Shown here in pieces: positions 18,500 to 20,576 of a DNA stretch of 51,669 nt. This DNA is from a bacterium. GTDB taxonomy: Bacteria > Vulcanimicrobiota > Vulcanimicrobiia > Vulcanimicrobiales > Vulcanimicrobiaceae. Under the pieces are notes generated by a model. The model was not told the DNA's origin, searched no databases, and was given only the letters and a program-made list of their open reading frames with translations. The stretch spans positions 169,445 through 221,113 of the forward strand of contig JAJZED010000003.1 of the NCBI GenBank assembly GCA_021805775.1, in the 5' to 3' direction. Every line of letters begins with the position of its first letter. Within the stretch, counting starts at the first letter, position 1. The position numbers and the translations under genes were made by a program.

Positions 18500-18928
18500 A
18501 TGCCAGTCAAGCCAAAATATATGGCGGCTGCCGCAGCTTTGCTTGTCGGCACGCTCGCATTTTCGCTCCACGCGGGGGCGGCCCCGGTGCCGAATGCCGG
18601 GCAGAAGGGCTCTTCTGCCGATCGCGTCGCCGTCGCGCAAGCCAAGGCGGCCCGGACGATCGAGCTCAAGGCCTACCGCTACTCGTTCGAACCCGAGACG
18701 ATTACCGTCCACGAAGGCGAACCGGTCACGTTGCGGCTCACCAGCAAGGACGTCACCCATGGGATCGCCGATGCCGATCTCGGTATTCCCAACACCGTCA
18801 TTTTCAAAGGCAAAACCAGCACCGTGACCTTCACGCCGAAAAAACTCGGTACGTTCAAAGTGCACTGCTCGGTTTTCTGCGGCGTCGGCCACGGCAACAT
18901 GATGTTGACCGTCAAAGTCATTAAATAA
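18500..18928 (+). CDS. Exported CuA-type cupredoxin
   Basis: A 142-aa protein with a Sec signal peptide (basic start, hydrophobic stretch about residues 8-22, then AGA) and a cupredoxin domain. The ligand set is that of cytochrome oxidase subunit II CuA sites: a His in VTHGIAD, then CSVFCGVGHGNM (Cys-x3-Cys-x3-His-x2-Met). It lacks the membrane helices of a true COX2, so it is probably a periplasmic electron carrier. AAAGGAG lies at 18480-18486, rather far from the ATG. A close paralogue lies at 20190-20576 beyond the Cyc2-like gene, suggesting one electron-transfer module. Confidence 0.85.
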   Translation: MPVKPKYMAAAAALLVGTLAFSLHAGAAPVPNAGQKGSSADRVAVAQAKAARTIELKAYRYSFEPETITVHEGEPVTLRLTSKDVTHGIADADLGIPNTVIFKGKTSTVTFTPKKLGTFKVHCSVFCGVGHGNMMLTVKVIK

Positions 18929-18953
18929 GAACGAGCACCGTTCGTCGGTTAGG

Positions 18954-18993
18954 AAAAAGAGCGGGCCCCCGTATTTCGGGAGCCCGCTCTTTT
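18954..18993. terminator. Bidirectional rho-independent terminator
   Basis: A perfect 12-bp stem (AAAAGAGCGGGC at 18955-18966, GCCCGCTCTTTT at 18982-18993), extended by C/G pairs inside, has A-rich and T-rich flanks on both strands. It sits between the convergent cupredoxin and cytochrome-porin genes and should stop transcription from either side. Confidence 0.88.
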
Positions 18994-19017
18994 CTCGCGA
19001 CGCTTACCGTGGAGATC

Positions 19018-20193
19018 TTAGTGGTTCTTCCACCACGGCCCGCCCCAGAGCAGCTGATAGCTCCAGACCGGCGTGCCGCCGACCGTCATGGCATCTTCGA
19101 CCGTGAACACGACGTTCGGTTGGATGTTGACGGCGAGATCGCCGATGTAGTAGTTGTTGACGCCGCCCATTCCGTCGTTCGTGGTGTCGTAGCGCAGGTC
19201 GAGATTCGCTTTCGGCAGCACGTTGTAGATTGCTTCGAGCGAATACGCATGGCTCTGCGACGAGACCGCCGGCGAAATATCTTGCGGGTTATTGTCGTTC
19301 CCTTGGAGATCGACGCCGAGCAACATATATTTCGGCCCGGTGTAGGCGACGAGGCCGCCGTAGCGTGAGTAGGTATCCTTCGCTCCGGAAGGTAGCGGCG
19401 TCGTGCCGCCTTCGAAGGCGAGGCCGCCCGACCAACGGGTCTCCGGCCACATATACATCAGCGAACCGACGACCGCTTGCCCGACCGCACCGGCGGCCGA
19501 ATTATCGGTGTCGTTGTCGTAGGCTGTTTCCAGCGGGCCTTCGTTCGTCATGTAGGCGACGTTGCCGATGAGTCCTTTCGAACCGATCTGCGTGTAGGAT
19601 GCGCCCCAGCGATTATCGCCGACGCCGACGCCGTTATTGCCGACGCCGAGCGCGGCGAACGAGTAGCCCGAGAGCGAGAGATTCATCGCCACCCACGGTG
19701 CAAAGAAGGGGGTCGGGAACATGCCGACCTGGAGACTTCCGTTGCCGTGGCTGAGGCCGTTATAGGCGATCCAGCCTTGATCGATCGAAGCCGCCGGCAT
19801 GCTGCCTTCGACGATCGGCACCGAGGCGTAGTAGGTGAAATCTTTTCCGAGATAACCTGCGCTGAGCAGATCGATGACGCCGACCATGACTTTGTTGCCG
19901 AAGGTGGGATCGGCGACGCTCGATTTATTGAGCGTAAACTCCAGCGCGACGGGTAGGTGTTTGTTGTTCTCCATCTGCGCGTGCGCGTCGAGGACGCGCG
20001 CGAAGTTCGTCGCCAGCACGTAGCGGCCGGTGGCGTTGAGATTGGGAACGGAGGTATGGCACATCTGGCAGCTGACGCCGCCCTGTGCATTAGCGAAGAG
20101 CGGGATGGCGCTCGCCGGACGCGCCGAACCGAGGATGGCAAACGCCATCCCCAGTGCGACGATCAGTCCGCTGCGACCGATTTTGGCGTTCAT
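19018..20193 (-). CDS. Cyc2-like fused monoheme cytochrome-porin
   Basis: A 391-aa exported protein. A signal peptide (to about residue 29, ASA) is followed by one heme-binding motif, SCQMCH (about residue 43), in the context PLFANAQGG...CHTSVPNLNATGR. This resembles the N-terminus of Cyc2 outer-membrane iron oxidases (FAxxTGxxCxxCHxxxPxLNxxGR). The remaining 330 residues have alternating polar/aromatic strands and Gly/Asn/Asp-rich turns ending in WWKNH, as in a porin barrel, and the length fits Cyc2. It is coupled to a CuA cupredoxin upstream (ATGA), supporting electron transfer. Whether the donor is Fe(II) or another source cannot be seen. Confidence 0.68.
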   Translation of the reverse strand: MNAKIGRSGLIVALGMAFAILGSARPASAIPLFANAQGGVSCQMCHTSVPNLNATGRYVLATNFARVLDAHAQMENNKHLPVALEFTLNKSSVADPTFGNKVMVGVIDLLSAGYLGKDFTYYASVPIVEGSMPAASIDQGWIAYNGLSHGNGSLQVGMFPTPFFAPWVAMNLSLSGYSFAALGVGNNGVGVGDNRWGASYTQIGSKGLIGNVAYMTNEGPLETAYDNDTDNSAAGAVGQAVVGSLMYMWPETRWSGGLAFEGGTTPLPSGAKDTYSRYGGLVAYTGPKYMLLGVDLQGNDNNPQDISPAVSSQSHAYSLEAIYNVLPKANLDLRYDTTNDGMGGVNNYYIGDLAVNIQPNVVFTVEDAMTVGGTPVWSYQLLWGGPWWKNH

Positions 20194-20576
20194 TGTTTTA
20201 CTATCACCGTTAGCTTCATGTTTGCGTGATTGAGGCCGCAGAAAATCGCGCAGGGGAGAACGTAGGTGCCGGCTTTGGTCGGGGTCACGGCGACGTTCAC
20301 TACCTTGCCCGGTTGAATGCGGGTGAGCGGGATGTGGAGCCGATTAGAAACGAGGCCGTGCACTCCTCCTGACGAGGTCAGGTGCAGGGTGGTCGTTTTA
20401 CCGACGTGCATCACGATCGTGCTGGGAGTGAATTTGCCATCCGAGCTGGCAACGATGTTGGTCGTCCCTGCGGCGGCGACTGCGTTGGTAACGCCGGCGG
20501 CGCCGGCGGGGCGGGCCCCCGCACCGAGTGCGATGAGGGCAAGGGTTGCGATAAAGGTGGTAAGCGTGCGTTTCAT
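20190..20576 (-). CDS. Exported CuA-type cupredoxin (second paralogue)
   Basis: A 128-aa protein with a signal peptide (MKRTLTTFIATLALIALGAG) and a cupredoxin domain with His in GGVHGL and CAIFCGLNHANM, the full Cys/Cys/His/Met CuA set. It is clearly paralogous to the cupredoxin at 18500. The start at 20576 has a strong AGGAGGA Shine-Dalgarno 4 nt upstream. Its stop overlaps the start of the cytochrome-porin gene, so the two are made together. Likely role: periplasmic electron carrier. Confidence 0.86.
   Translation of the reverse strand: MKRTLTTFIATLALIALGAGARPAGAAGVTNAVAAAGTTNIVASSDGKFTPSTIVMHVGKTTTLHLTSSGGVHGLVSNRLHIPLTRIQPGKVVNVAVTPTKAGTYVLPCAIFCGLNHANMKLTVIVKQ

Follow-up and report, generated by a model that had tools for sequence, protein, structure and literature searches.

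Outside Acidithiobacillus, little is known of the proteins that partner cytochrome-porins in the periplasm, and CuA is a cofactor met chiefly within oxidases and nitrous oxide reductase. Cyc2 proteins bear a published signature, with AXPXFAR[QK][TY] about 5 aa before CxxCH and PXL about 4 aa after it, and for neutrophilic Cyc2 much of the downhill electron chain is not known (Keffer paper, PMC8406198). In the system described here, gene order, gene overlap and one natural fusion indicate that the partner of a cytochrome-porin is a CuA protein. The window, meaning the whole stretch of 51,669 nucleotides that was analysed (C12:169445-221113), belongs to a 2.59 Mb genome (96% complete) of an uncultured bacterium whose genus is known from acid mine drainage. 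Its relatives carry the public-record names of Ca. Eremiobacterota MAGs (class Eremiobacteria), and the genome with the orthologous locus L008 is MAG 15, which comes from acid mine drainage at Cabin Branch (PMC8357290).

Three genes make up the locus (Table 1), which lies among housekeeping genes, with obgE and rpmA on one side and fabF, rnc and smc on the other. They encode a 391-aa cytochrome-porin with a single heme and two cupredoxins, each of which has a signal peptide and every CuA ligand. The original prediction had drawn the bounds of the locus exactly, from the ATG of cupredoxin A at 18500 on the plus strand to the start of cupredoxin B at 20576 on the minus strand. It had also described one CuA cupredoxin as coupled to the porin and a second as lying across a terminator, and both descriptions are borne out: the stop codon of cupredoxin B and the ATG of the porin overlap by 4 nt (ATGA, 20190-20193), and cupredoxin A is convergent, with an intergenic region (18929-19017) whose fold energy is -41.4 kcal/mol (z -4.21). 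An AGGAGG-type ribosome-binding site precedes the start of cupredoxin B. Genome contigs were searched with a one-sequence query, and the matches came from the same genus only; the three genes are kept in seven genus-level loci, and the gene order around them is the same in other such loci. This retention, and dN/dS values across these loci of 0.04-0.10 (porin), 0.04-0.22 (cupredoxin B) and about 0.2 (cupredoxin A), show that the three genes are not chance ORFs; purifying selection acts on the porin and on cupredoxin B, and is looser on cupredoxin A.

Table 1. Features of the CuA-cytochrome-porin locus, in positions of the window.
Feature	Position	Strand	Basis
Cupredoxin A, 142-aa exported CuA-type cupredoxin, convergent with porin operon	18500..18928	+	Pfam, PDB match, tree
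CuA ligand motif of cupredoxin A, C-SVF-CGVG-H-GN-M	18866..18901	+	read directly
Shared (bidirectional) terminator between cupredoxin A and porin, long stem-loop with A/T runs either side	18952..18993	.	
Single-heme cytochrome-porin (Cyc2-like), 391 aa: signal peptide, N-terminal cytochrome domain, presumed beta-barrel remainder	19018..20193	-	
Heme attachment motif CQMCH, residues 42-46, within AIPLFANAQGGVSCQMCHTSVPNL	20056..20070	-	read directly
Cupredoxin B, 128-aa exported CuA-type cupredoxin, first gene of operon, before porin	20190..20576	-	Pfam, PDB, model
CuA ligand motif of cupredoxin B, C-AIF-CGLN-H-AN-M	20217..20252	-	read directly

The identification of two soluble CuA-type cupredoxins is upheld by their Pfam families, full ligand motif and matches to the CuA domain of Thermus ba3 oxidase. 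Both proteins score above the Pfam cut-offs for PF13473 (Cupredoxin_1) and PF00116 (COX2), with E values of 3e-11 and 8e-7 respectively for cupredoxin A, and both contain H-x35-CxxxCGxxHxxM, which supplies all first-sphere CuA side chains. The best PDB match of cupredoxin A is the Thermus ba3 CuA domain (2lln/2cua, E about 1.5e-14), as is the best PDB sequence match of cupredoxin B. The AlphaFold2 model of cupredoxin B lies mostly above pLDDT 90 for residues 37-128, and its top Foldseek match is ba3 subunit II (2qpe_B, E 6e-10, rmsd 1.3); a cupredoxin fold like that of COX subunit II is thus indicated for B by model and Foldseek, and for A by sequence. In a tree of CuA proteins for which ligand spacing was an entry requirement, the soluble proteins form a single clade separate from oxidase subunits (100/95), cupredoxin B makes up its own genus-level branch, and cupredoxin A clusters with the cupredoxin linked to the porin in the sister genome G035 (99/87). 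The two cupredoxins are unequal partners: B is coupled to the porin and strongly conserved, with a CuA motif identical across six aligned genus orthologues, and A evolves faster, with one loss of the Met ligand. This replacement by Leu (CGVGHGNL) is found in one species, the relative G001 (L053/L006; L006:5441-5869).

As had been claimed, the 391-aa ORF has a signal peptide and a single CxxCH, which stands in SAIPLFANAQGGVSCQMCHTSVPNLNATGRYV and of which C42, C45 and H46 are invariant in the homologue alignment. Searches of Pfam, NCBIfam and PDB sequences with the porin returned no relative. Homologues were found in 52 of the 60 same-class relatives searched and in 0/5 genomes from other classes, and in a second, even draw over the phylum strong matches came from 27 genomes, all of the same class, with 0/32 outside it. 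The host genome has two paralogues, on contigs C4 and C23, the former with a C-terminal cytochrome c domain; among paralogues more widely a cytochrome c domain takes the place of CuA, as a separate protein in one family and fused in others. In the C23 paralogue (L049:6832-10134) the cytochrome c domain follows a Met/His-rich linker, and a multicopper oxidase gene comes next. The sister porin clade to which this paralogue belongs is followed by a multicopper oxidase (L049, L061, L062, L064-L066, L072-L075, L079, L084 and L100), and most of its members have an extra C-terminal cytochrome c domain, encoded by a separate gene in L064 and L065; this clade is possibly a metal-oxidising or copper-linked conduit.

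In its relation to Cyc2, the window porin has the signal peptide, the single N-terminal CxxCH and, at 391 aa, the length (at least 365 aa) of that family. Its full heme context, AIPLFANAQ...CQMCHTSVPNL, includes PXL (CHTSVPNL) and keeps the A, P, F and A of the upstream signature, with R-[QK]-[TY] absent; some paralogues come nearer, such as AIPIFAREY in L122. As a reference set we used six distinct plasmid-borne Cyc2-motif proteins (from Methylocystis, Caballeronia, Paraburkholderia, Polymorphobacter, Ideonella and Acidithiobacillus). Profile-profile comparison (hhalign) aligned the cytochrome domains of the porins with those of the Cyc2-motif proteins over 42 columns (E 4e-14), whereas generic cytochrome c domains, taken from the same genomes, aligned over only 10-14 columns at about 1e-4. 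An HMM of the six proteins, serving as a surrogate for the FeGenie models, matched only cytochrome-porins among all ORFs of the fetched loci, through the cytochrome domain in the related proteins listed, and scored the window porin at 24.6 bits (E 7e-5 at Z=100000). In the reverse direction, a search of 72,556 plasmids with one CuA-linked porin matched only Cyc2-motif proteins, again over the cytochrome domain. Given the profile-profile match, the HMM matches and the reverse search, the N-terminal cytochrome domain is, as judged by sequence comparison, homologous to that of Cyc2. Between the barrel parts, profile-profile comparison detected no sequence homology. The AlphaFold2 model of the porin, built on an alignment of seven near-identical sequences, has a pLDDT of 25, and a crude amphipathicity count gave 12 strand-like segments against 17 in the Cyc2-motif references, a form of counting too weak to settle barrel size (16 strands in Cyc2); a barrel-like remainder is plausible. 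The predicted Cyc2-like identity is supported for the cytochrome domain, and strict Cyc2 membership is not supported: with a signature half present, a presumed barrel lacking sequence homology and a low-confidence porin model, we label the protein Cyc2-like rather than Cyc2.

It is against this evidence that a true Cyc2 iron oxidase, in which the heme would oxidise Fe(II) and the CuA protein would stand in for rusticyanin, has to be weighed. The hhalign match of the cytochrome domain favours it, and the rus operon likewise joins a cytochrome-porin, a copper protein and an oxidase (PMC10654088). It is also favoured by the acid-mine MAG 15, which the available part of its description lists, on the basis of BLAST and a tree, as encoding a Cyc2-like protein (PMC8357290). 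That genome has two cytochrome-porins, to either of which the published credit may refer, and in the same part of the source no copper partner is mentioned for the Cyc2-like protein. We note that this part of the source is inconsistent, since its text describes MAGs 14 and 15 as without Fe(II) oxidation genes, whereas a table and later text give MAG 15 Cyc2. Iron oxidation by the window porin nevertheless seems unlikely to us, as its signature is incomplete, its presumed barrel is without detectable sequence homology to Cyc2-motif proteins, RuBisCO was not found in the host genome and numerous paralogues are without oxidase links; the potentials of CuA and ba3 are, moreover, low for Fe(II) at low pH.

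The pairing of CuA and porin extends well beyond the genus. Our survey covered the surroundings of 79 cytochrome-porins from class Eremiobacteria, of which 33 are directly adjoined by a CuA gene on the same strand, the two genes most often overlapping by 4 nt; these 33 come from 30 genomes in three families. A heme-copper oxidase lies within 4 kb of 16/33 CuA-paired porins, compared with 0/46 of the others. In seven genomes of family f3 (L076, L077, L078, L086, L089, L105 and L106) the order coxII-coxI-CuA-porin runs along one strand, and in other genomes the oxidase pair and the CuA-porin pair are divergent; response regulator, histidine kinase and universal stress protein genes are recurring neighbours. 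In one genome (L091) the two partners are naturally fused into a single polypeptide of 513 aa, with the CuA domain at the C-terminus of the cytochrome-porin. On the porin tree the CuA label changes 5 times, against 25 in shuffles. CuA as the partner of the cytochrome-porin is supported as a class-wide link, with one fusion and often beside a ba3 oxidase. Chance co-location was considered and rejected, 33/79 porins with a CuA neighbour comparing with only five CuA-type genes in the host genome. Tandem CuA-porin-CuA-porin arrays occur at L091:3676-7271 and L093:3618-6832, the first L091 porin also having a fused CuA domain. Separately, L088:1110-2588 and L090:3676-5154 have near-identical porin and CuA regions in two families (G013 and G044), reflecting either recent transfer or a misbinned contig.

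The link to a copper oxidase would also suit a role in copper handling, in which the porin would admit copper, the heme would reduce Cu(II) and a CuA-like chaperone would load the CuA site of ba3. Such a role has a precedent in PmoD, a CuA-forming protein tied to copper (PMC6189053), and the sister porins that adjoin multicopper oxidases bear Met/His-rich linkers. However, the CuA ligand set is kept in all sequences but one, where a chaperone needs part of it only, the host genome already has two Sco proteins, and copper uptake needs no heme; we consider this role distinctly unlikely, more so than iron oxidation. Outward flow, with the CuA protein feeding the porin so that periplasmic electrons are discharged to extracellular acceptors, has to be weighed too, as the gene anatomy fixes no direction of electron flow. 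Repeated co-location with O2-reducing ba3 oxidases, which are the natural end of an inward chain, speaks against it, as does the lack of a recurring periplasmic reductase among the neighbours, and we give outward flow very little credence.

It had been proposed that the genome might hold an oxidase lacking its own CuA subunit. A search of the host genome gave none, because each of its three COX1 genes has an adjacent CuA subunit II. The COX1 on contig C7 is Thermus ba3-like (E about 1e-118) and, together with its subunit II, of ba3 type; it is followed by a response regulator and a histidine kinase (L052:5351-6894). The CuA-porin pair is unlinked to an oxidase in the host genome, whereas in the sister genome G035 it is divergent from the same oxidase-regulator-kinase cluster. 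The C7 oxidase is the best candidate for the terminus of the chain in the host, and the regulator and kinase beside it, which recur by the CuA-porin pair in relatives, are candidates for a regulator of the module. Cytochrome b is present in addition to the Sco proteins.

Taken with the gene anatomy, the conserved operon, the natural fusion, the ba3 kinship and the cytochrome domain homology, all of which are established computationally, the reading that we favour and hold to be reasonably probable is a two-gene electron conduit from outer membrane to periplasm, made up of cupredoxin B and the cytochrome-porin, with cupredoxin A as an accessory second cupredoxin, feeding a ba3 oxidase. In this conduit the presumed porin would hold one c-type heme in its N-terminal Cyc2-like cytochrome domain at the periplasmic mouth, where the heme would take an electron from a donor arriving through the pore. 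The heme would pass it to the soluble periplasmic CuA protein from the same operon, and from there it would reach the CuA site of a heme-copper oxidase of ba3 type, whose genes lie on C7 here and beside the pair in many relatives and which would reduce O2 at the end of the chain. The barrel topology, direct heme-to-CuA and CuA-to-CuA transfer and the inward direction are what we infer from genomic data. The low-confidence porin model, the incomplete signature and the distance of the pair from the oxidase genes in the host genome count against this reading. Candidate donors are perhaps Fe(II), possibly organically complexed, humic hydroquinones or other cells. CuA centres usually lie near +250 mV, far below free Fe(II) at mine-drainage pH, and free acidophilic Fe(II) oxidation is therefore a poor fit; the chain is better suited to donors whose potential lies under about +250 mV, for instance reduced humics or Fe(II) in complexes, than to free Fe(II) near pH 3. 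For Mariprofundus Cyc2 the potential is 208 mV. RuBisCO was not found in the host genome, which therefore gives no sign of RuBisCO-based autotrophy fuelled by such a donor. More tentatively, the same steps could constitute a class-wide respiratory route, in which external electrons would pass from porin heme to soluble CuA to the CuA of ba3, with neither cytochrome c nor a type 1 copper carrier between.

These data suggest a novel wiring by which electrons from a putative external source would be drawn into the cell, and they yield a testable chain, from the outside to O2, for a class that is uncultured and occurs in acid mine drainage. They also urge caution, as cytochrome-porin matches in such genomes need not signify Fe(II) oxidation. 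In the open-access literature we found no report of a CuA partner for a cytochrome-porin, nor of a module of Cyc2 with cupredoxin and ba3 or of Eremiobacterota with extracellular electron transfer; this absence is weak evidence, because open-access papers only were covered.

Among described systems, the rus operon of Acidithiobacillus ferrooxidans (cyc2-cyc1-cup-coxBACD-rus) resembles the Eremiobacteria module in co-encoding a cytochrome-porin, a periplasmic copper protein and a terminal oxidase. It differs in having rusticyanin-type copper proteins and an aa3 oxidase, in contrast to the CuA-type carrier and ba3-like oxidase of the module, and in having Cyc1, whereas no Cyc1-like cytochrome c is among the recurring neighbours of the module. 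Subunit II of Thermus ba3, whose CuA domain is the top match in sequence and fold and has the same ligand motif, has Gln/Glu between the two Cys residues where the window cupredoxins have Ile/Val; the latter are also soluble, exported and anchorless, and fall in their separate clade. PmoD/AmoD likewise forms CuA as a copper protein that belongs to neither an oxidase nor nitrous oxide reductase, but the CuA site of PmoD spans a homodimer and has different ligands, and the protein retains a membrane helix (PMC6189053). Cyc2 itself (Acidithiobacillus, Mariprofundus, and Cyt572 of Leptospirillum) shares with the window porin a signal peptide, one N-terminal CxxCH, a porin-length remainder, AxPxFA before and PxL after the heme motif and a detectably homologous cytochrome domain, and is unlike it in R[QK][TY] and in a barrel unalignable by sequence. 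The plasmid-borne Cyc2 homologues collected here mostly adjoin a c-type cytochrome gene, whereas the partner of the window porin is a CuA cupredoxin.
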